This document shows, piece after piece, positions 5,878-15,932 of a stretch of 16,605 bases of DNA (the stretch's first letter is position 1; each line of letters begins with the position of its first letter). The translations under genes were made by a program, and so were the position numbers. Origin of the DNA: Candidatus Omnitrophota bacterium (lineage in GTDB: Bacteria; Omnitrophota; Koll11; Aquiviventales; Aquiviventaceae); the NCBI GenBank assembly GCA_016196415.1, contig JACPXS010000138.1, positions 1 to 16,605 on the forward strand, in the 5' to 3' direction. The notes beneath the pieces are model-generated. The model saw only the letters and a list, made by a program, of their open reading frames with translations. It was not told the DNA's origin and searched no databases.

Positions 5878-6327
5878 ATGCCACGCCGCTCAAAAGCCGA
5901 CGAACTACTCGATTTTGAAATCACCTTCTACGAAAAGCTCCTCACCGCTTACCCGGACTTCGTCGACGCCCTCATCCCCTTGGGGAATGCCTACACCAAG
6001 CGCGGCCTGCACGAACAGGGGCTGGCGATTGACGTGCGGCTGACGCAGCTTCGGAACGACGATCCGTTGGTGTGGTATAACTTGGCGTGCAGTTACGCCC
6101 TGCTGAAGCGCGTGGATGAATCGCTCGAGGCGCTGCGGCGGTCCGTCGAGTCCGGCTACACGGATCTCGACTACCTGCAGAAAGATCCCGACCTCAGCAA
6201 CCTGCGTCAATTACAGAAGTACCGCCAGTTTCTCGCCTCATGCTCCGCTCTGCTCGCCTCCAAGACCGCACGGGCCGATCTGGCCGCTCCCACCCAAACC
6301 GGAACCAGTCAGCCCGACCAGCCCTGA
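5878..6327 (+). CDS. Short tetratricopeptide-repeat protein
   Basis: A 149-residue protein with about two to three TPR-like helical hairpins: FYEKLLTAYPDFVDALIPLGNAYTKRG (residues 18-44), HEQGLAIDVRLTQLRNDDPLVWYNLACSYALLKR (residues 45-78) and VDESLEALRRSVESGYTDLDYL (79-100), ending LRQLQKYRQFL and a polar tail. TPRs act as protein-binding scaffolds. No signal peptide or membrane segment is visible, so it is probably cytoplasmic. The partner is unknown. Its promoter is the box pair at 5798-5825. Its last 90 bp overlap antisense with the end of the nuclease gene (stop at 6238), and the tail after about residue 125 is low complexity, consistent with sequence shared by two strands. The fold assignment is good; the role is open. 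Confidence 0.85.
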   Translation: MPRRSKADELLDFEITFYEKLLTAYPDFVDALIPLGNAYTKRGLHEQGLAIDVRLTQLRNDDPLVWYNLACSYALLKRVDESLEALRRSVESGYTDLDYLQKDPDLSNLRQLQKYRQFLASCSALLASKTARADLAAPTQTGTSQPDQP

Positions 6328-6867
6328 CCACACGCGGAGCTCGCGCCGCGCAGCCCGCTGCGTCCCGCGTGTCTCATCCCCCGCGCCAAGAAGATCTCGC
6401 GGACCATGCCGCGCTGAATCCGGCGCCCACAGCCCGCGGTGTGCCCGACGCGCTTCCTCGAGGAGGGCGCGAAATCGCTCGACATATTTCACATTGGGCG
6501 GGATGGTCAGGAGGCGCGCCAGTCCTGCCCGAAGCAGCTCCCCATTGACCATCACGTCCCCGATATAGACGTACGCAAGGATCCGCCCGAAGCGATCGTG
6601 GGTTTGCACGTCGTACTCAAGCCGGACCCGCTTGCCCTCGACGAGTTGACGGTTGAGCGCCGTCGCCTCTTGACCGAGAGGCTCGCGCACCTCGACCCAT
6701 CGATCGCCGTCTCGCCGCCGAAGCTCTGGCGCATCGATGCCGATGTATCGAAGGAGCTGCCCATCGGTGAGTGCCACGGTATCCCCGTCGATGACGCGGC
6801 GGACCGTAGCGTCTTGCGGAAGCGCCGACCCGCAGCTCAGCAGGCCGGTGAGGGCAATACCGCTCAC
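6238..6867 (-). CDS. Staphylococcal-nuclease-like (thermonuclease) secreted protein
   Basis: SNase-fold nuclease of 209 residues with a GTG start at 6867. The family catalytic set is intact: RRVIDGDTVAL (Asp27, Asp29), LRYIGIDAPE (Arg40, Asp45, Glu48) and DRFGRILAYV (Arg95), corresponding to the Ca-binding Asp and the Arg/Glu/Arg of nuclease. Members cleave DNA and RNA, usually outside the cytoplasm. The N-terminus is hydrophobic (GIALTGLLSCGSA), compatible with a leader or weak lipobox at Cys12. The frame stays open upstream and adds RVRSSILRLAFV, a good signal-peptide n-region, yet no standard start codon is there. The catalytic domain ends at RGLWA (about residue 148). The remaining 60 residues are Gly/Arg-rich and partly antisense to the TPR gene, so they are probably a non-functional read-on. 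It lies 41 bp after the thiamine-binding gene. Confidence 0.85.
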   Translation of the reverse strand: MSGIALTGLLSCGSALPQDATVRRVIDGDTVALTDGQLLRYIGIDAPELRRRDGDRWVEVREPLGQEATALNRQLVEGKRVRLEYDVQTHDRFGRILAYVYIGDVMVNGELLRAGLARLLTIPPNVKYVERFRALLEEARRAHRGLWAPDSARHGPRDLLGAGDETRGTQRAARRELRVWSGLVGLTGSGLGGSGQIGPCGLGGEQSGA

Positions 6868-6908
6868 GAAGGCGAGTCGAAGGATCGAGGAGCGAACGCG
6901 AGGAACGA

Positions 6909-7223
6909 TTACTGCTTGAGCGATTTGCCGACTTTCGCTTCGAGCGACTGCACCTTCTGGACGATCCGTCCCATCCCGGGTTGGTCTTTCCGGTCATCGA
7001 TGCGGATGGTCGTCATCACGCGATCGGTCCTTTGGAGCACGGCCTGGTGGCACTGTTTGGCCAGAAGCATCACCTGATCCCACGCTCCTTCCACGACGGT
7101 GCCCATGGGCCCCACGCGGTAGTCCAGGCCGCTGCGATCGATCAGCGCGGCCACCGCCGCTAACAGGGCGCTGAGGCTGGCGCTCTTCGTTCCGATCGGG
7201 ACGATTTCAAGTTCTGCCAGCAT
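6909..7223 (-). CDS. MTH1187/YqgV-type thiamine-binding protein (UPF0045)
   Basis: A 104-residue ferredoxin-fold protein, the normal length for this family. Recognisable parts are MLAELEIVPIGTKSASLS, then ALIDRSGLDYRVGPMGTVVEG and a C-terminal RVMTTIRIDDRKDQPGM. Family members form tetramers and bind thiamine or related pyrimidines; they are cytoplasmic and probably sense or buffer the vitamin. ATG 7223 was chosen because GGGAGGTGG lies six bases upstream; a GTG nine bases earlier falls inside that ribosome-binding site. An extended -10 promoter lies at 7247-7255. It is first in a probable two-gene unit with the nuclease. The pairing with a nuclease suggests no shared pathway. Confidence 0.87.
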   Translation of the reverse strand: MLAELEIVPIGTKSASLSALLAAVAALIDRSGLDYRVGPMGTVVEGAWDQVMLLAKQCHQAVLQRTDRVMTTIRIDDRKDQPGMGRIVQKVQSLEAKVGKSLKQ

Positions 7224-7246
7224 GACAACCACCTCCCGCTCGCTCC

Positions 7247-7314: not shown

Positions 7315-9402
7315 TCACGCGCGGCGGATGCGGCGCACCGCAAGGACCGCGAGAGGCAACAGCGCCATGCCGAGCATCGCCGAGAACCACGGCACCGGCA
7401 GATGCACGAACGTCCCTTCCACGGTCAGCGCCTCGCCGCTTGTCATCAACCGGTTGAACTGGTAGACGATCCCGGTTTTCGGCAGGCGGATCTTCAGCGG
7501 AAAAATGCCGCGGTCTTGCAGCGCCGCGATCCGCCCCAGCCCCATGGAATTATCGAACGTGCCCCTTCCGAGTCCTTCTTTTCCATCGCGGTCACCGGGA
7601 GAGTTGGTCGACGACAGGTCTCCATGCGCTTCCTCAACGGACGGCTCTTGCTTGGCCTCAAACTCGGACTTGGACCCCGCGATCACGGCCCTCAGTTTTG
7701 GGGACAATCCCTCTCTCGCTCGTCTGAATACGGAACGCGGAGTCCCCTGGAAGCCTCTCTTCAGACGGAGGTCTACCTCACCGCTCTTCTGCAGCCCGTC
7801 GGCCAGTTCCACCTGAGATTCAGCCGCCATGGCGACCTGCGCCAGTGGCTCCTCGAGGAAATCGCTGGCCGCCAACCCGCGCTCCAGATTTCCCGTCATG
7901 CGCAGGAATTTGACCGACTCCGGCGCGTAGACAAGCCAACTCGACACCGTCGTGGGCACATCCAGCACCGGGCCCCGAAGCGCCAACCGCCCCACGCCGG
8001 TCAGTATCGGTCGCCGCTCGAAGTAGACGAGCTCCACGGTCACGGTCCCTTCGCTCCCCACTCCTCCATCTAATGGCACCAGCAGGCGATCCGCCTCGCC
8101 TTGCGCCGGCTTGACGGACTGGCCGTCCACCAGGCAGCTCCAGAGGATTCCACCTTCCGGAAGCTGCACCTCCAGGAACTGCTTCTTGTTGGTCCGGATC
8201 AGGTAGGCGGCGCGGGTCAGCAGCTCCCCCTGCCGTGAAATAACGGTCGCCAACTCGCCTCGCTCGGCGATCGCCGCCAGCACCGGATGATCCTGATGTC
8301 GCGTCACTGTCAGCGTCACCTGCGACGGATGCTGGTGGTATTTGAAGGCAAGGAGGATTGGGCTGCCCACAGCATTCTGCAGGACATCGGGCAGCTCCCT
8401 GACATCAATCCGCGTCGCGCCGTTCACTGTCGCGGGGGCCAGTTCGATGCTGCCGGAACGCGCCACCGCCAGGTAGCCACGCTCCTGCTTGACGTCCAGC
8501 AGCGCCACCACCGGGACCGCGTAGGTAGTGCCGCTCTCAATCGCTTGCTCGCCCTCCACGATGAGTTGATAGGTTGTCTCCTTCAGGACGAACCCCAACG
8601 TCACTTGCAGCACTCGCTCACCGCCGTCATCGCTGACGCGCCAGTCCTCGATCCCCGATCCGCGCACACTCACCACGCTGACCCCCTCAGGAATTCGGAG
8701 GCGGAGCTGCCGCGTCTCACCCTGGCTGATTTGGTACGTGGCGATGGCGGTGACGCGGGCCGCCTGCTCCTCAAGCGTTGCCAGCGTGTGAAGCTCCCCG
8801 TAAAGTGCAGGCTCCACCTTGACGGGCGCTGTCGGCTTGGTCCGCCAGCACAACCGGATCCGGTCGGCCGCCCCGACCCGTGCCGTCAACGTCACCCCGC
8901 CCCGGTGAGCATCGGGGGTACGCTCAACGTACAGTTGATCCTCCGGGTTGAGCTCCACATCCTTGCGCGGGACGAATAGCGACAGGGTCGAAAAGGTCGC
9001 CTGGGGAATGTCCAGCTGGATCCCTTCCCCCTGGCTATCCTGGGTCAGCAGGGTTGAGCAGGTGACCCGGATCTTATAGATGCCACCTCGGCCGGCCGCC
9101 AGGACGTATCCCCCGTCCCGGGGCATCATGTGCGCCTCCCCGACGCGCCGTTCGATAGCGATGTCGGTCATCATCGCCCCGTGCAGGGCCAACGGCACTT
9201 CCGTCCAGCCATCCCGGAGAATACGGATCGTGTATCGGACTTCCATCCGGGCAATCTGGTCGCGGATCTCGCCATGGTACTCGGCCGCCTCAATCACCCA
9301 TCCTGCTGGATTCTGCAGTGGGCCGATCGCAGATCGAGCCTGAGCCGCCGGAACCCATCCAGCCAAAACCAACGCGAACCCTACCATCCATGTCCGCTCC
9401 AT
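7315..9402 (-). CDS. Exported, tail-anchored beta-rich protein of unknown function (695 aa)
   Basis: I do not recognise a named family. ATG 9402 is preceded by AGGAGGTGGGAG, a strong ribosome-binding site. Residues 1-22 form a signal peptide (MERTWMVGFALVLAGWVPAAQA). The body alternates short polar and hydrophobic strands (for example ARMEVRYTIRILRDGWTEVPL, TVELVYFERRPIL), indicating several beta-sandwich-like domains. At residues 570-640 there is a polar, low-complexity insert, after which a conserved-looking segment resumes (FPLKIRLPKTGIVYQFNRL). The C-terminus is a single membrane helix followed by RRIRR, preceded by HLPVPW; this is laid out like a sorting or tail-anchor signal, but lacks the PEP motif of PEP-CTERM proteins. 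It follows a small ORF by 13 bp and lies under a putative sigma-E-type promoter. An envelope or surface protein produced on command of the linked sigma factor is the best inference. Confidence 0.82.
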   Translation of the reverse strand: MERTWMVGFALVLAGWVPAAQARSAIGPLQNPAGWVIEAAEYHGEIRDQIARMEVRYTIRILRDGWTEVPLALHGAMMTDIAIERRVGEAHMMPRDGGYVLAAGRGGIYKIRVTCSTLLTQDSQGEGIQLDIPQATFSTLSLFVPRKDVELNPEDQLYVERTPDAHRGGVTLTARVGAADRIRLCWRTKPTAPVKVEPALYGELHTLATLEEQAARVTAIATYQISQGETRQLRLRIPEGVSVVSVRGSGIEDWRVSDDGGERVLQVTLGFVLKETTYQLIVEGEQAIESGTTYAVPVVALLDVKQERGYLAVARSGSIELAPATVNGATRIDVRELPDVLQNAVGSPILLAFKYHQHPSQVTLTVTRHQDHPVLAAIAERGELATVISRQGELLTRAAYLIRTNKKQFLEVQLPEGGILWSCLVDGQSVKPAQGEADRLLVPLDGGVGSEGTVTVELVYFERRPILTGVGRLALRGPVLDVPTTVSSWLVYAPESVKFLRMTGNLERGLAASDFLEEPLAQVAMAAESQVELADGLQKSGEVDLRLKRGFQGTPRSVFRRAREGLSPKLRAVIAGSKSEFEAKQEPSVEEAHGDLSSTNSPGDRDGKEGLGRGTFDNSMGLGRIAALQDRGIFPLKIRLPKTGIVYQFNRLMTSGEALTVEGTFVHLPVPWFSAMLGMALLPLAVLAVRRIRRA

Positions 9403-9568: not shown

Positions 9569-9596
9569 CCGAACCTCCTTGCTGGAAGATGAGACA
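9561..9596 (-). promoter_or_regulatory. 9-bp inverted repeat overlapping the small-ORF start codon
   Basis: On the minus strand TGTCTCATC (9596-9588) and GATGAGACA (9569-9561) are perfectly complementary, with an 18-nt loop that contains the Shine-Dalgarno GGAGG. The second arm includes the ATG of the small ORF; the first arm includes the promoter -10 element. A transcript reading through from the anti-sigma gene would carry both arms, whereas one starting at the promoter would lack the first. Confidence 0.6.
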
Positions 9597-9617
9597 CCGC
9601 GGCGGAGGAAAAGTTCC
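9590..9617 (-). promoter_or_regulatory. ECF (sigma-E type) promoter for small ORF and 695-aa gene
   Basis: Minus-strand GGAACTT (9617-9611), spacer of 15 bp, then GTCTCA (9595-9590). This is nearly the E. coli sigma-E pattern (GGAACTT-N15-GTCTGA as at rpoH P3). The linked ECF sigma factor is the natural candidate to use it. The same -10 region, in a 12-mer CGGTGTCTCATC, recurs at the start of the sigma gene (11598-11609). Confidence 0.68.
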
Positions 9618-9673
9618 CGGAGGGATGGAGGACGAACCACTAGGGGGTGAGCGACCGGCCGGACACGGCCCGG

Positions 9674-10999
9674 CTAGAGTGGCTGGATGAGCTCAAGCGA
9701 GATGGTGATCCACACCGGCTGAGTGGGATCAGGAGCCGCGGGCGGGTTGGTGGAGAACTGTCGCAGAAATTCCGGCACCGCCGATGCCGGCAGCTTGATG
9801 GATAGATGATGCTCGTTCGTCGCCACCGCCAAGCCTTTCCGAGCGATGACCCAACCGCTGATCTGCGACGCAGCGGCAGCCACGTCGGCGACTTGCCATT
9901 GGACCTGGAGCGGCTCCGGCGCGACGGCGGCAAATGCAGGCGCGGCTGGGGTCGGCGCGTTGGCTTCTGCTGTCTTGGCCGCAGCCTGGAACCCCTGTGC
10001 GTTGCCGTTGACGTCTTCGGCGCGACTGGCCGTGGAAGTTGGCGCAGCAGGCGTCTCATTGGCCTGATGGGCAATCGGCTCGGCAGATTGTCCATCAGGC
10101 GATTGCTCTCCCATGGGAGCGGAGGCGTTCAGAGCGTCCTGTCTATCAGTGGCTTTCACCTTGCCATCCCAAAAGTCTCCGATACGCTTCTGGACTGTGG
10201 GCTGCGGGGTCTGGACAAGGGTCCGCGTCTCGATCAGCCCCCCGGACAAGCCCGTGGCTTCACGTCCGTCGTCCGAGTCGCTTCGCTCGCTCACCTCGTG
10301 CCGAACCCGACCCTCGGTGCGAGGCAGGACGCTCCCTCGACGCATTGCGGGCGATATCCCGAGCGAGGCGCCCCCGGCCGACCTGTCCCGAGCGGAGTCG
10401 AGGGAGGCCGGGGCCGAAATCGAGGAATCGGAGGGCAGGTCCTGGCCCTGAACCTCGAACTCAGAACCCTGAACCGATATGCGGTCTTGGGACGAACGTT
10501 CGCCTTTCTCGCCTCCGTACTCCCTTGGCGGCTTCTGCGCTAGGTTCGTTTTCAGCGCGCCCACTATTGTGGAGTCGCCTACCAGGACGTTTTTGGCGAT
10601 CACCAAAGACCGCTCCGGGCCGCCCCGGAATCGCTCCGGTGTGATCGCATCCCTCCTGGTGATCCCCGGCAGGTTGGCCACTATGATGACCAGTAACGCA
10701 GTCGTCGCCAGCGCCAGCCCGTGCAGCGGCAGGCTCGCCGGCCATGGGGTCGTGAACCGACGCGCAAGCATCTGCCACCAGGGAGCCGCCTGCAGCTTGC
10801 GATGGATACCTGGCAACAAGTCAGGAGCCTTGGGAACGTCCAGCGTTTGCAGCGTGTGGAGCATCCGCTTCAAGGAGTCCAGCTCCCCGCGGCAGACATC
10901 GCACCCGCCTAAATGGTCGTCCAGGCGGGTGCGCTCCTGCGCGCCCAGCACCCCATCGACATACGGTGAGAGCCACCGACGATACGCTGTGCAGGTCAT
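9674..10999 (-). CDS. ZAS-type membrane anti-sigma factor with periplasmic C-terminal domain
   Basis: A 441-residue protein starting at ATG 10999, which shares one base with the stop of the sigma gene (TGATG), implying translational coupling. The N-terminal zinc-binding anti-sigma domain is clear: Cys3, then His29-x3-Cys33-x2-Cys36 in DDHLGGCDVCRGEL. One membrane helix at about residues 92-111 (LHGLALATTALLVIIVANLPG). A long Pro/Ala/polar linker follows, and a final domain (about 345-441) with VQWQVADVAAAASQISGWVIARKG and WITISLELIQPL that probably senses a periplasmic signal. Residues about 171-256 are encoded by repeat-like DNA: four heptamers (10448-10475) and several palindromes. ZAS proteins hold their ECF sigma inactive until proteolysis or a conformational change. 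The M48 protease gene nearby may be relevant. Confidence 0.87.
   Translation of the reverse strand: MTCTAYRRWLSPYVDGVLGAQERTRLDDHLGGCDVCRGELDSLKRMLHTLQTLDVPKAPDLLPGIHRKLQAAPWWQMLARRFTTPWPASLPLHGLALATTALLVIIVANLPGITRRDAITPERFRGGPERSLVIAKNVLVGDSTIVGALKTNLAQKPPREYGGEKGERSSQDRISVQGSEFEVQGQDLPSDSSISAPASLDSARDRSAGGASLGISPAMRRGSVLPRTEGRVRHEVSERSDSDDGREATGLSGGLIETRTLVQTPQPTVQKRIGDFWDGKVKATDRQDALNASAPMGEQSPDGQSAEPIAHQANETPAAPTSTASRAEDVNGNAQGFQAAAKTAEANAPTPAAPAFAAVAPEPLQVQWQVADVAAAASQISGWVIARKGLAVATNEHHLSIKLPASAVPEFLRQFSTNPPAAPDPTQPVWITISLELIQPL
10243..10268. repeat. Hairpin inside the anti-sigma gene
   Basis: CGGAC-AAGCC-CGT-GGCTT-CAC-GTCCG: two 5-bp stems with a 3-nt bulge. It contains CAAGCCCGTGG, the same 11-mer as the palindrome at 3802-3819, within coding sequence of the linker. 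Confidence 0.5.
10374..10411. repeat. Palindromic repeat unit inside the anti-sigma gene
   Basis: CCGGCC (10374-10379) pairs with GGCCGG (10406-10411), with an inner TCCC/GGGA pair. The inside reads CTGTCCCGAGCGGAGTCGAG, a phrase I recognise as a dispersed palindromic repeat in many metagenomic genomes. Here it is translated in frame as ASLDSARDR. Confidence 0.5.
10448..10475. repeat. Heptamer array inside the anti-sigma gene
   Basis: Four 7-bp units in register: CCTGAAC, CTCGAAC, TCAGAAC, CCTGAAC. On the coding strand they translate as part of VQGSEFEVQGQ. The same 7-bp architecture occurs in the intergenic arrays at 3964 and 16411. Confidence 0.7.
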
Positions 11000-11622
11000 C
11001 AGAGTTTCCCGTTCAGCAGGGTCCGCAGGTTCCATCGGGCCCGGTTAAGCCGCGATTTCACCGTGCCCATCGGACAGCGGAGCATCGCAGCAATCTCCTC
11101 ATACGAACACCCCTGCAGGTCGCGCAGCACGATCACGATCCGTTCCGTCTCGCGCAACTGCCGCAAGGCCTCCCGCACCAGATCGCCCTGCTCCTGGCGT
11201 CTCGCAACCGCCCGGGGCGATGGGGACGGATCCGCTACGTCGTGGCCAAGCGATCCCTCTCCCGATTCCACGGGATCGTCGAGGGACGCCGCGATGACCC
11301 GCCGCCGTCTGGCCCACCACCGGCGACGGTTTCGGCAGAGGTTCATGGTAATGGAAACGAGCCAGGTTGACAACTTCGCCTCCCGGCGAAACGCCCCGAG
11401 GGACTGGTAGGCGCGCACAAAGGTGTCCTGGGCCACGTCCTGCGCCTCATCGTGATCACCGAGCATCCGCAGCGCAACAGCGAACACCACCTGCTGGTGG
11501 CGCCGCACGAGTGGGTCGAAGGCGCTCCCATCACCGGCGAGCACGCGCTCGATCAGTAGGCGGTCGTCATCCTGCACGCCATGCGACTCACCCGCCTGAT
11601 GAGACACCGGACCGCCTGCCAT
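10999..11622 (-). CDS. ECF (RpoE-like) RNA polymerase sigma factor
   Basis: A 207-residue extracytoplasmic-function sigma factor. Region 2 reads AFDPLVRRHQQVVFAVALRM followed by LGDHDEAQDVAQDTFVRAYQSLGAFR and LSTWLVSITMNLCRNRRRWW, the core-binding and -10-recognition parts. Region 4 reads LRETERIVIVLRDLQGCSYEEIAAMLRCPMGTVKSRLNRA, the helix-turn-helix that reads the -35. It ends TGATG with the anti-sigma gene. ATG 11622 has only AAGGGA nearby. A GTG at 11577 would give a start MQDDDRLLIERVLAGDGSAF that fits the family better and would lie about 20 bp after a putative self-activated promoter at 11600-11629. The residues between the two starts are not family-like. Confidence 0.93.
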   Translation of the reverse strand: MAGGPVSHQAGESHGVQDDDRLLIERVLAGDGSAFDPLVRRHQQVVFAVALRMLGDHDEAQDVAQDTFVRAYQSLGAFRREAKLSTWLVSITMNLCRNRRRWWARRRRVIAASLDDPVESGEGSLGHDVADPSPSPRAVARRQEQGDLVREALRQLRETERIVIVLRDLQGCSYEEIAAMLRCPMGTVKSRLNRARWNLRTLLNGKL

Positions 11623-11629
11623 GGTTCCC
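11600..11629 (-). promoter_or_regulatory. Putative autoregulatory ECF promoter at the sigma gene start
   Basis: Minus-strand GGGAACC (11629-11623), spacer of 17 bp, then GTCTCA (11605-11600). The 12-mer CGGTGTCTCATC at 11609-11598 is identical to that at 9599-9588 in the downstream promoter, and GGGAAC precedes it by 14 nt here and 13 nt there. It overlaps the annotated ATG, so it would serve the shorter GTG 11577 form. Confidence 0.5.
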
Positions 11630-11659: not shown

Positions 11660-12805
11660 TCAGGCCTGTTGCTCTGCCACGCGGATCCGCTCAGTAATCG
11701 GGGGATGATCGTACAACAGCCACACGACCCACCGCGGCGGCGCCGGGTCTGCGAGGTTGAGCGCCGCTAACCGCCTCAGGGCATCGGCAAATGCCCGGGG
11801 CCGCTTCGTCACATCGACGGCGAAACGATCCGCCTGCCATTCCAAGGATCGCGAGAGCGCATGCTGAATCGGTTGGCCGATCAGGCCCACCACGGAGAGC
11901 CACAGCATGAGGATCGGAAACCCCGCGATGTCGGACAGCCCTCGGAGCCCAAGTGCATGCACCCAGGATGATCCGACGAGCCGGGTCAATTGAAACGCCA
12001 CCCACGAGCCGGCCGCGCTGAACAGCAGCAACTTGGGGATGTGGCGGTAGCGGTGATGGGCCAGCTCATGGGCCAGCACGGTTTCGATCTCTTCGGGTGT
12101 GAAGGTTGAGAGCAGCGTATCGGAGAGCAGGACTCGGCGGCTCCTGCCTACCCCCACCAGCGCCGCGTTGGCCTTCCGGGTCTCAACCCCGAGCTCCACG
12201 CGGAAGACCCCAATCGCCGCAAGCCCGACGCGCTGGCAGAGCGCCAAGAGCCTCTGCACCAGTCCCTCATCCTCCAAGCGCCTCGTCTTGTAGAAGATCG
12301 GTAGCACCACCGTCGGAAAGATGCGGGCCATCACGACGCTCACGAGGACCCAGCCGAGGGTCGCCCAGATCGGCCAGTGTGTCGGGGCATGCCGCAAGAG
12401 CGCGTAGAGCCCCTCCGCCACCAGCGCGCCCAACACGCCGCTCACCGCAAGCTGTTTCACTTCCCGGATGCTCCAGGCGGTCAGCGTCATCCGAGACAGA
12501 TGAAAGCGACGCTCAAGCAGGAAGCTGCTGTAGAAATGCAGCGGGAGCATCGCAAGGTAGTACAGGCCGCCGAACACCGCAAGGTCCCCAAGGATGGCCA
12601 GGAGGTTCCACGTCACCCGCTGAGACCACCACTGCGCGATCGAGGAGGAAAACCCGCTCGCCTGCAGCGCGCCGAGGAAGAGCATCGAGAGGGCAAGATC
12701 GACGAGGAACAGCCGGTAGCGAATCCGCGCGTAGGCCCGGGCGCTCTCTCCGCCGGCGGGATCGAACCGCCCGCATTCTGCTCTGGGCTGAGGTGGCGCG
12801 CTCAT
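11660..12805 (-). CDS. M48A family membrane metalloprotease (Ste24/CAAX prenyl protease 1-like)
   Basis: A 381-residue polytopic membrane protease. ATG 12805 overlaps the glpD stop as ATGA. Several hydrophobic segments precede the catalytic site (for example LFLVDLALSMLFLGAL, LLAILGDLAVFGGLYYLAMLP, and a pair around 150-170). Zinc motif HELAH at 246-250 and the third ligand Glu322 in LEWQADRFAV are intact, as is the family segment ETRKANAALVGVGRSRRVLLSDTLL. Two more membrane segments lie between them. Bacterial M48A proteases degrade misfolded or specific membrane proteins; prenylation is not expected in bacteria. Placed 37 bp before the ECF sigma gene, it could act in envelope quality control or on the anti-sigma factor, but this is inference. 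Confidence 0.9.
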   Translation of the reverse strand: MSAPPQPRAECGRFDPAGGESARAYARIRYRLFLVDLALSMLFLGALQASGFSSSIAQWWSQRVTWNLLAILGDLAVFGGLYYLAMLPLHFYSSFLLERRFHLSRMTLTAWSIREVKQLAVSGVLGALVAEGLYALLRHAPTHWPIWATLGWVLVSVVMARIFPTVVLPIFYKTRRLEDEGLVQRLLALCQRVGLAAIGVFRVELGVETRKANAALVGVGRSRRVLLSDTLLSTFTPEEIETVLAHELAHHRYRHIPKLLLFSAAGSWVAFQLTRLVGSSWVHALGLRGLSDIAGFPILMLWLSVVGLIGQPIQHALSRSLEWQADRFAVDVTKRPRAFADALRRLAALNLADPAPPRWVVWLLYDHPPITERIRVAEQQA

Positions 12806-14433
12806 GACGCAAGGGAGGAGAGGAGGCCCGCGCGACGAAACGCCAGGCTCCTGGCGAGGAACTGGTGGTACTCCTCGATCTGACGATCCATCTCGGCCCG
12901 AGAACGTCCGGCGTATCGCTGGCAGAGCTCGGTCATTCTCGAGAGCGCATCCAAACCCTGGCAGGAGCTCCAGGCAACGGGAGTGCGCCTGGCGAATACA
13001 TCGGTGATCGTGCACGCCAGCTCGTTCCGAAGGGCATGGACGAGCTCTGCTTCAAGCCACTCGTGGTGCGGGCACAGGGAATGGCCGAGCGCCGGATCGA
13101 GATCAAGCAGGCGTAGGATGTGCAGGGCGCCAGCGCCGTAGCGCATCAGCAGTCGCGCCAAGCGTTCAGGATCGAGCGCCCGGGTGATCGCCTGCCAGTG
13201 ATCAACGGAAACCGGCGGAACGCTCTCCAGCAAACTCACGCGATCCGTCAAACACCGATCGACCGTCCATCGGCGCTCCCTGATGAGCAGGTCAACGACC
13301 TGCTTGGCCATGAGCCGGTAGGTGGTAAATTTCCCGCCCATCACGCTGATCAATCCCCACCGGTCCACTTCGATCCGGTGCTCGCGCGAGGCCCGCGTTG
13401 CACTGCGAGCGGACGCCAACAGGGGCCGCGCTCCGGCGAACGTGGCCAGCACATCGTCGGCATCGAGGTGGCTGCTCGGCAGGATCCGATTCACCTCATC
13501 GAGCAAATAGTCCACCTCATTGGCATTCGCCGCCAGCGTCTCAAGTGTGCCGTCGAGTGGCGACTCCGTCGTGCCGATGAGCGAAGACCCCTCACCCCAG
13601 GGCAACACAAAGAACATGCGCGCATCCGCTCGGGACTGCACAAAGAGTGCTTCGTGGGCCACGCGAGGCACGATGAGGTGAACGCCTTTGCTGGGCGCCA
13701 GCCGCGGCGGGGCATCGGCTGCGCTCAGTCGCCGGATCTGATCCGACCATGGGCCTGCCGCGTTGACCACGGCTTCAGCGCGGATTTCGAATTCACGGCC
13801 GGTGAAGACGTCTTCGACGATCGCCCCACACACCACCTGGTTCGCTTTCAACAGGACCCGCAACCGCACATAGTTGCAGCACATGGCCCCTAAGCTGACG
13901 GCTTGGAGAATGTTCGCCAGACACACGCGGGCATCATCCATCTGGCAGTCGGTGTAACAGCCGACTGCCTGCAGTCCTTCCCCCCGCAAGCTCGGTTCAC
14001 GCGCGAGCGCACGGCGCGGGGAGAACATGTAAGGTGAGCGGAGATTGCGCCCGGCAGCTAACAGGCTGTAGAGCCATAACCCAAGGCGGATCTTCCAAGC
14101 CGATCGCGCATCGCCTCGATAGACCGGAAGCAGCAGCGAGAGCGGATGGATGAGCCCCGGGGCGATCGTCCGCAGGATGCGCCGCTCACGAAGGCTCTCG
14201 AAGACCAAACGCCAGTGCCCATGCTCAAGATACCGCAACCCTCCATGGATCAGCTTGGACGTCTTCGAACTGGTCCCGCTGGCGAAGTCACCCTGCTCAA
14301 TCAATGCCACCCGCAAGCCTCGCATCGCGGCATCACGCGCAATCCCCGCGCCGACAATGCCGCCGCCGATGATGAGCAGGTCAGCCCGCTCTCCTCTCAA
14401 GCGGGCCAGCGCGATATCGCGGGGCGCGGTCAT
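12802..14433 (-). CDS. glpD: FAD-dependent glycerol-3-phosphate dehydrogenase
   Basis: A 543-residue enzyme oxidising glycerol-3-phosphate to dihydroxyacetone phosphate and passing electrons to the quinone pool from the cytoplasmic membrane face. The dinucleotide-binding start LIIGGGIVGAGIARDAAMRG is followed by LIEQGDFASGTSSKTSKLIHGGLRYLE, which is diagnostic of GlpD. Other family features: VNAAGPWSDQI, SKGVHLIVPR, LPWGEGSSLIGTTESPLDG, and WGLISVMGGKFTTYRLMAKQ. The C-terminal DAO_C domain contains ITDVFARRTPVAW. ATG 14433 is preferred because it overlaps the glpK stop as ATGA; another ATG lies nine bases upstream. Directly coupled to glpK and to the M48 gene. No glycerol facilitator or glpR is in view. 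Confidence 0.95.
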   Translation of the reverse strand: MTAPRDIALARLRGERADLLIIGGGIVGAGIARDAAMRGLRVALIEQGDFASGTSSKTSKLIHGGLRYLEHGHWRLVFESLRERRILRTIAPGLIHPLSLLLPVYRGDARSAWKIRLGLWLYSLLAAGRNLRSPYMFSPRRALAREPSLRGEGLQAVGCYTDCQMDDARVCLANILQAVSLGAMCCNYVRLRVLLKANQVVCGAIVEDVFTGREFEIRAEAVVNAAGPWSDQIRRLSAADAPPRLAPSKGVHLIVPRVAHEALFVQSRADARMFFVLPWGEGSSLIGTTESPLDGTLETLAANANEVDYLLDEVNRILPSSHLDADDVLATFAGARPLLASARSATRASREHRIEVDRWGLISVMGGKFTTYRLMAKQVVDLLIRERRWTVDRCLTDRVSLLESVPPVSVDHWQAITRALDPERLARLLMRYGAGALHILRLLDLDPALGHSLCPHHEWLEAELVHALRNELACTITDVFARRTPVAWSSCQGLDALSRMTELCQRYAGRSRAEMDRQIEEYHQFLARSLAFRRAGLLSSLAS

Positions 14434-15932
14434 GGCTGGCATCCAGACGCCACCGTCCGCACGCGGTCCACCGCATCCTGCCAGCCTTGGTAGATCCGGT
14501 TGCGTTCCGCCGCGCGCATGCGAGGCACAAAGCGCCGCTGGCGCTTAGGGTTGCCTTCCAAGGCCATGAAGTGGCGTGGCGTCCACCAGCCGATGCCGAT
14601 CCCCGCCAGGAGCGCTGCGCCCTTGGCGGTATTGGCGATCATCGCGGGGCGAACGATGGGAATGCCCAGGAGATCCGCCTGGAATTGCATCAACCAATCG
14701 TTCTGCGCAGCCCCTCCGTCGACCCGCAGCTCGCGAAGGTGAAGACGGCTATCGCGCTCCATGGACTCCACTACGTCCCGCGTCTGGTAGGCGAGCGATT
14801 CGAGCGTCGCCCGCACGAGGATCGCCTGATTGGATCCTCGCGTCAGCCCCAGGATCGCGCCGCGCGCGTGCATGTCCCAGTAGGGAGCGCCGAGGCCGAC
14901 GAAGGCCGGCACCAGGTAGACGCCTCCGGTGTCCTTGACGCGTTGGGCGATCGCGGCCGTTTCCCGCGCGGTGCGAATCAGGTGGAGCTCATCCCGCAGC
15001 CATTGGATGGCTGCGCCGGCGATGAAGACGCTGCCTTCAAGCGCGTAGACCGGCTTCGCTTCGGCGCCATAGGCGAGCGTGGTGAGTAAGCCGTGGCGGC
15101 TCTCCACCAGGCGATCGCCGGTATTCAGCAGCAAGAAGCAGCCCGTCCCATAGGTGTTCTTCGCACTTCCAGGTGTCAGGCAGCCGTGCCCCACCATCGA
15201 GGCCTGCTGGTCCCCCGCCACTCCGGCAATGGGAATGCCGGCCGGGAGCGGCCCGGCACCGCTCGTCAGCCCAAATAATCCGCTGGACGGCAGCACCTGG
15301 GGCAGCAGCGAACCGGGAACTCCCAGGTAGCGCATCAAGACCGGATCCCATCGCTTCGTCCTAATGTTGTAGAGCAGCGTCCGGGAAGCGTTGGTGACAT
15401 CCGTCGCATGCACCGTCCCGCCCGTGAGATGCCACATCAGCCAGCTATCCACCGTCCCAAATGCCAGATGCCCTCGCTGAGCCAGCCGGCTGGCCCGTGG
15501 GATGTGATCCAGCAACCAGCGGATTTTCGTTCCGGAAAAGTACGCATCGAGCACCAAGCCGGTCTTGCGCCTGAAGGCGGGCTCATGATGCCGCCGCTTG
15601 AGCTGATCGCACATCGGCGCAGTCCTCCGGCATTGCCAGACAATGGCGTTTGCGATGGGCCGGCCGGTCCGGCGATCCCAGAGGATCGTGGTTTCGCGCT
15701 GATTGGCAATGCCGATCGCGTCGATCCGCCGATGGAGCCCTCGGCGTTGCGCCAGGGCTTGCCTGATGACGCCAAAGGTGACGCGGAGGATCTCATCGGG
15801 GTTGTGCTCAACCCATCCGGCGCGCGGGTAGTGCTGCGGCAGCTCGGCGTAGGCCTGCGCCGCCACCCGAGCGCGCCGGTCCACCGCCAGCACCGTCGTG
15901 CCGGTCGTTCCTTGATCAATGGCAAGGATCAT
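14430..15932 (-). CDS. glpK: Glycerol kinase
   Basis: A 500-residue FGGY kinase, the same size as the E. coli enzyme, converting glycerol and ATP to glycerol-3-phosphate. Motifs: MILAIDQGTTGTTVLAVDR (phosphate 1 loop), ANQRETTILWDRRTGRPI (glycerol-binding Arg-Glu), LDAYFSGTKIRWLLDH (Tyr contact), AGVAGDQQASMVG with the catalytic Asp near residue 240, NTYGTGCFLLLNTG (FGGY first signature area), and LRVDGGAAQNDWLMQFQADLLG near the end. One deviation is IANTAKGAALLAG where most members have E-x-TALGAAxLAG. Its ATG overlaps the pseudopilin stop (ATGA), and its stop overlaps the glpD ATG, so translation is probably coupled along the unit. Confidence 0.96.
   Translation of the reverse strand: MILAIDQGTTGTTVLAVDRRARVAAQAYAELPQHYPRAGWVEHNPDEILRVTFGVIRQALAQRRGLHRRIDAIGIANQRETTILWDRRTGRPIANAIVWQCRRTAPMCDQLKRRHHEPAFRRKTGLVLDAYFSGTKIRWLLDHIPRASRLAQRGHLAFGTVDSWLMWHLTGGTVHATDVTNASRTLLYNIRTKRWDPVLMRYLGVPGSLLPQVLPSSGLFGLTSGAGPLPAGIPIAGVAGDQQASMVGHGCLTPGSAKNTYGTGCFLLLNTGDRLVESRHGLLTTLAYGAEAKPVYALEGSVFIAGAAIQWLRDELHLIRTARETAAIAQRVKDTGGVYLVPAFVGLGAPYWDMHARGAILGLTRGSNQAILVRATLESLAYQTRDVVESMERDSRLHLRELRVDGGAAQNDWLMQFQADLLGIPIVRPAMIANTAKGAALLAGIGIGWWTPRHFMALEGNPKRQRRFVPRMRAAERNRIYQGWQDAVDRVRTVASGCQP

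Follow-up and report, generated by a model that had tools for sequence, protein, structure and literature searches.

Two candidate promoters of an RpoE-like ECF sigma factor in an Omnitrophota bacterium, one overlapping the sigma reading frame

In E. coli, micA and rybB are both sigma-E dependent. Their annotated 5′ ends in strain K-12 are the 7th base after GTCTGA and GTCTTA, respectively. Promoters connected with ECF sigma factor genes do not always lie ahead of the coding sequence: a passage of PMC10027907 places P3 of Mycobacterium tuberculosis sigE inside the coding region, where it is read by SigH and yields shorter isoforms, and part of PMC4921905 ties the autoregulation of Streptomyces coelicolor sigR to alternative N-termini. 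Among the papers listed in our literature searches, judged partly by titles, there was no ECF study in Omnitrophota.

Here we describe an ECF sigma factor locus on a contig of a Candidatus Omnitrophota bacterium (JACPXS010000138.1, 16 605 nt, in its whole length hereafter the window), which carries two matching sigma-E-like sites. Judging from the sequence comparisons below, we consider it highly likely that both are read by the RpoE-like sigma factor encoded between them, site 1 as an ordinary promoter and site 2 as one whose transcript begins inside the sigma coding sequence.

Gene content of the locus

The minus strand carries, in this order, genes for an M48/CAAX-like peptidase, an ECF sigma factor, a zf-HC2 anti-sigma factor, a 50-aa ORF and a 695-aa protein (Table 1); the named protein relatives are mostly MAG proteins of Candidatus Omnitrophica. 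The sigma factor matched only the Pfam families Sigma70_r2, Sigma70_r4_2, Sigma70_r4 and Sigma70_ECF, with no region 3 family among them, and its best PDB sequence matches are RpoE-type sigma factors. Against the RpoE equivalog of NCBIfam (TIGR02939) it scored 136.2 bits, which is below the curated cut-off of 236.15. As its region 4 is RpoE-like, the factor should recognise GGAAC...GTCTNA. The adjacent gene encodes a zinc-finger anti-sigma factor, and its ATG (10999–10997) overlaps the sigma stop codon (11001–10999) by one base. Both family searches with the anti-sigma protein were run on 9674–10993, two N-terminal residues short, and the NCBIfam antisigma match was sub-threshold (29.5 against a cut-off of 100).

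The peptidase gene lies upstream of the sigma gene in all 12 close loci (defined below), and the end of its stop codon ranges from 31 nt ahead of the first base of GGAAC to 41 nt past it. The peptidase itself is a candidate protease for the membrane anti-sigma factor. No Pfam or NCBIfam family matched the 695-aa protein. Its structural model is all-beta, and the stretch aligned within residues 374–666 resembles the N-terminal beta domain of M1 aminopeptidases, with low Foldseek TM-scores for the model (0.11–0.23 over the query). A likeness to oligosaccharyltransferase in the seven top VIA rows, the chains of which we take to be ribophorin I/Ost1, was set aside (rmsd 18–19 Å), and the domain match alone was used from the Foldseek matches. 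Elsewhere in the window, a glycerol-3-phosphate-dehydrogenase-like gene (DAO/DAO_C) adjoins an ORF that, judged from its translation, is glycerol-kinase-like (12802–15932), and 6238–7232 encodes a staphylococcal-nuclease-like protein and a thiamine-binding-family protein.

Table 1. Features of the window, followed by the start codon arrangements seen at site 2 in related loci
Feature	Position or loci	Strand	Remark
695-aa protein	7315–9402	−	hydrophobic helices at N-terminus and C-terminus
Small ORF, 50 aa	9416–9568	−	
Ribosome-binding site AAGGAGG of small ORF	9574–9580	−	immediately downstream of site 1
Site 1, predicted transcript start	about 9583	−	7th base after −10
Site 1, candidate ECF promoter	9588–9618	−	−35 GGAAC 9617–9613, N17, −10 GTCTCA 9595–9590
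Anti-sigma factor, zf-HC2 domain	9674–10999	−	zf-HC2 7.6e-10
ECF sigma factor	10999–11622	−	207 aa if from ATG 11622; regions 2 and 4
GTG, in-frame candidate sigma start	11575–11577	−	downstream of predicted site 2 start; 192-residue sigma
Site 2, predicted transcript start	about 11593	−	inside sigma ORF, near codon 10 from ATG 11622
Site 2, candidate ECF promoter	11598–11629	−	−35 GGAAC 11628–11624, N18, −10 GTCTCA 11605–11600
M48/CAAX-protease-like membrane peptidase	11660–13015	−	directly upstream of sigma
In-frame ATG/GTG at bases 5–7 after −10	L083, L084, L086, L088, L089, L090, L093, L098; close loci L073, L079		
ATG directly after −10	L085, L094–L097, L099		
ATG one base later than bases 5–7	L092		
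Normal leader, ATG downstream	L081		
Start codon fitting none of these arrangements	L082, L087, L091		

Chance controls and conservation of the two sites

The 12-mer CGGTGTCTCATC occurs exactly twice in the window (9588–9599 and 11598–11609, minus strand), and none of 200 dinucleotide shuffles of the window contains it. The pattern GGGAAC-N12..16-CGGTGTCTCATC gives exactly two matches, site 1 with a gap of 13 nt and site 2 with a gap of 14 nt, and none in the 200 shuffles. Sites 1 and 2 are also the sole GGAAC-N14..20-GTCTNA pairs of the window. The two matching sigma-E-like sites of the preliminary description are borne out at their places. Site 1 reads into the small ORF and the 695-aa gene, and site 2 into the sigma gene.

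For site 1 we compared the window with the ten best loci on Omnitrophota contigs (L001–L010; n=11). GGAAC precedes the 695-aa homologue, or the small ORF belonging to it, in 11/11 loci, at a spacing of 17 nt in all but L004 (16 nt), and the −10 was GTCTNA in nine of them (GTCGGA in L001, GTCGTA in L004). In the window, site 1 has the 17-nt spacing between GGAAC and GTCTNA of an RpoE-type promoter. All 18 exact matches to GGAAC-N14..20-GTCTNA in this set fell on site 1 or site 2. Bases 5–7 after the −10 were RTR in 9/11 loci, the window (CCA) and L004 (GCG) being the exceptions, compared with 3.9% of positions in these loci. Because the annotated 5′ ends of both micA and rybB fall on the 7th base after GTCTNA, we took RT|R as the mark of the transcript start. 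In 9/11 loci the stretch scanned behind site 1 contains a GGAGG-type ribosome site with a start codon; L004 has only GAGG at ribosome-site spacing, and L008 has none near, its gene starting further down. Short ORFs resembling the small ORF were seen by eye behind site 1 in L001 and L002 (3/11 loci including the window). By these features site 1 looks like an ordinary promoter with a leadered mRNA, and its proposed position in front of the operon of the small ORF and the 695-residue protein is supported by the ribosome site that follows and by its retention in every locus compared.

Outside this set, the four Acidobacteriota-type loci (L011–L014), searched with the exact pattern only, gave a single match, on the minus strand of the non-Omnitrophota locus L011 and away from the gene start. 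An upstream scan of 17 distant Omnitrophota loci gave GGAAC-N17-GTCTGC in L027 and no clear site 1 in the remaining 16; to the extent of these scans, site 1 belongs to the closer clade. In the genome of L026, site 1 stands at the head of its operon.

For site 2, a sigma alignment of 20 rows was searched against 384 genomes taken from the class to which G001 belongs, and 211 of them had a match at E≤1e-25. The best 30 matches (L070–L099) and the window make up the 31 sigma loci examined, and the window with L070–L080 the 12 close loci. The counts are not independent, since the loci are related; the genomes of L001–L010 account for ten of the 31. The motif was present near the sigma start in 31/31 loci, with the full score of 10 in 25 and a score of 9 in six. 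Of 1240 shuffles of the sigma-start regions, 24 reached a score of 9 and none reached 10. A cruder control, in which the same loci were cut into 664 tiles of 340 bp and read on both strands with the true sites kept, gave 37 scores of 10 and 16 of 9, which shows that the motif is not confined entirely to these places. The close loci have GTCTNA in 12/12 and GGAAC in 11/12 (CGAAC in L075). Conservation in relatives that keep the sigma/anti-sigma pair was the comparison on which the preliminary description had staked its reading, and both sites are conserved there (11/11 and 31/31 loci). The shuffles, the conservation and a reversed control given below rule out a chance origin of the two sites, which are very probably promoters of the adjacent RpoE-like ECF sigma factor.

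The site within the sigma reading frame

The ATG of the sigma ORF (11622–11620) sits within the spacer of site 2, and the −10 forms bases 18–23 of the ORF, its codons GTG TCT CAT reading V-S-H. In all 12 close loci the −10 lies within the sigma frame and is read GTG TCT, with an ATG 12–15 nt ahead of the GTG in seven. Between GTCT and the conserved core, nine different distances occur among 11 close loci, all in one frame (the core of L078 was not located). Among the N-termini of the best 120 of 2156 sigma proteins, the window's included, 113 have [V/M]-S-[H/N/Y/D], four have G as third residue and three have no motif. Since H, N, Y and D are encoded by NAY codons, this pattern amounts to a constraint on the DNA, GTCTNA(T/C), read as protein.

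If transcription starts at the 7th base, the site 2 transcript would, in most of the 31 loci, start only after the likely start codon. In the window the predicted start is likewise downstream of ATG 11622, which the transcript cannot then carry, and self-activation of ORF 10999–11622 from site 2 is in that form not supported. GTG 11577 is preceded by GGGTGAG (duplex −11.0 kcal/mol), and the 192-residue sigma factor would lose almost nothing of the part aligning to RpoE, which begins at residue 17.

We propose that transcription from site 1 would produce a leadered mRNA of the ordinary kind, encoding the small ORF product and the exported 695-aa protein, and that site 2 would be a sigma-responsive promoter placed on the translation start of the sigma gene itself, at the junction with the upstream M48 gene. 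The candidate sigma starts mostly have weak ribosome sites (L078, at −12.0, is among the exceptions) and lie right at the stop codon of the peptidase gene; full-length sigma factor is for this reason probably made by read-through of an M48–sigma–anti-sigma operon. The site 2 transcript would mainly supply the anti-sigma factor as a brake or, in the window, a shortened sigma factor from GTG 11577. Envelope stress would release the sigma factor, and the 695-aa protein would be made from site 1 once the anti-sigma factor lets go. The anti-sigma gene has a ribosome site of moderate strength (−4.5 to −10.3 kcal/mol for the duplex in the ten close loci scored; random GC-rich mean −3.5), and its start often overlaps the sigma stop; translation of the anti-sigma factor may need that of the sigma factor.

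One extension of this proposal is possible, if rather doubtful: throughout the phylum, the site 2 transcript might lack the sigma start codon and boost the anti-sigma factor instead of the sigma factor, as a built-in brake. We are equally tentative about its corollary, that the N-terminal PVSHQ peptide of the sigma factor is its own −10 element read as protein.

Plain positive autoregulation, which we hold to be a serious possibility just short of an even chance, would have the site 2 transcript encode the sigma factor from a leaderless or short-leader start just past the −10. The sigma start would then be GTG 11577 in the window and RTG at bases 5–7 elsewhere, and the longer N-terminus an artefact of gene calling. 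This partly overlaps our preferred explanation, which leaves the fate of the site 2 transcript open. A transcript start two bases earlier would turn an ATG or GTG at bases 5–7 into a leaderless start and so give plain positive autoregulation, but the calibrated start is the 7th base and not the 5th. An in-frame RTG stands exactly at bases 5–7 in 10/31 loci, and in frame there are ten RTG to one RTA at site 2, as against one to eight at the non-coding site 1. We did not accept that all such RTG are real starts, RTR being found at the non-coding site 1 as well and the GTG being out of frame in L094–L097. L081, with its ATG behind a normal leader, agrees with autoregulation, and so does P2 of M. 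tuberculosis sigE, which a passage of PMC10027907 describes as SigE-dependent, leaderless and coincident with the start codon. By contrast, an ATG, GTG or TTG between the predicted start and the core is seen in only four of the 12 close loci, namely the window, L071, L072 and L075, no candidate like GTG 11577 being found there in the other eight; in the close loci the reading frame continues across the −10; and in L094–L097 and L099 the ATG follows the −10 directly, with a stop codon just before it.

The last five loci make up a sigma subgroup in which the ATG comes immediately behind this same promoter. No zf-HC2-like start was found after their sigma genes, and another kind of partner gene may follow there.

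It is unlikely that the sites belong to a different ECF sigma factor of the same cell, with the motif shared among several such factors including the adjacent one. Up to six sigma matches occur per genome, and the more distant sigma types (L082–L099) carry the same motif, but site 2 accompanies the sigma gene itself in every one of the 31 loci, the usual sign of autoregulation. We reject as very improbable that site 2 is a translation-start signal, with GGGAAC as a weak ribosome site and GTGTCT as a GTG start: the invariant GTG and the ATG ahead of it in the close loci would fit, but GTGTCTCAT is present at the non-coding site 1 too, GGAAC lies 17–18 nt from GTCT and is too far away to serve that GTG, in some distant loci the conserved motif falls in different frames, and the third residue (H/N/Y/D in 113 and G in four of the 117 motif proteins) points to a constraint on DNA, not protein.

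Further targets and comparison with known systems

Pattern counts were made in 11 Omnitrophota genomes (G001–G010 and G205). GGAAC-N16/17-TGTCTNAT gave 16 matches against one for the reversed control (seven at site 2, six at site 1, three elsewhere), and GGAACTT-N15-GTCTNA gave 12 against one (seven at site 1, one at site 2, four elsewhere). Extra matches in G003 (C42), G008 (C132) and G010 (C44) are without a clear target. A search across the whole class with GGAACYTTTN13GTCTNA had a high background (45 matches in 33/384 genomes; 33 control matches), so the size of the regulon was judged from the close genomes only.

In G005, a site-1-type promoter right after the anti-sigma gene precedes an alpha-2-macroglobulin-like ORF with MG2 and bait region (L065:2-3487, minus strand), and a second one precedes an ORF whose N-terminus is signal-like, behind which a HEAT-repeat protein is encoded. 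In G009 such a promoter stands before a DUF4139 protein, and in G158 (L068:1004-6213, minus strand) it precedes an operon of three genes, which encode a 191-aa protein, a VIT/VWA protein of 853 aa and, in third place, the homologue of the 695-aa protein. Judged by their sequences, several targets look like envelope proteins, and the further sites mostly precede proteins that appear to be exported. The preliminary description had called the regulon self-contained. This holds in so far as 13/16 and 8/12 matches are the expected sites, but not for G005 and G009 with their further target sites; the sigma system, as predicted from these genomes, is compact but not closed.

For Omnitrophota, the analysis yields a consensus promoter and an initial list of genes for an ECF system of the envelope type. 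It further suggests that a promoter inside the coding start can serve ECF autoregulation, an arrangement that may overturn the positive feedback usually expected and that makes automatic start-codon calls for such genes unreliable.

The locus resembles E. coli sigma-E in its GAAC(TT)-type −35, its GTCTNA −10 and the start at the 7th base as in micA and rybB, and region 4 of the window's sigma factor is close to that of RpoE (SYEEIAA..C P.GTV.SR). Unlike in E. coli, the sigma factor falls under the equivalog cut-off, the anti-sigma factor is of the zf-HC2 type and the sigma promoter overlaps its own start codon. In this last respect it is similar to P2 of M. tuberculosis sigE, a SigE-dependent promoter that coincides with the start codon in the account given in part of PMC10027907. 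That promoter yields a leaderless full-length message according to the same passage, whereas here the −10 itself is in frame in the close loci, and the window is not among the ten of 31 loci with an in-frame RTG of the P2 type at bases 5–7. S. coelicolor sigRp2 differs in that, as described in a portion of PMC4921905, it lies upstream and gives a longer, unstable form of the sigma factor.
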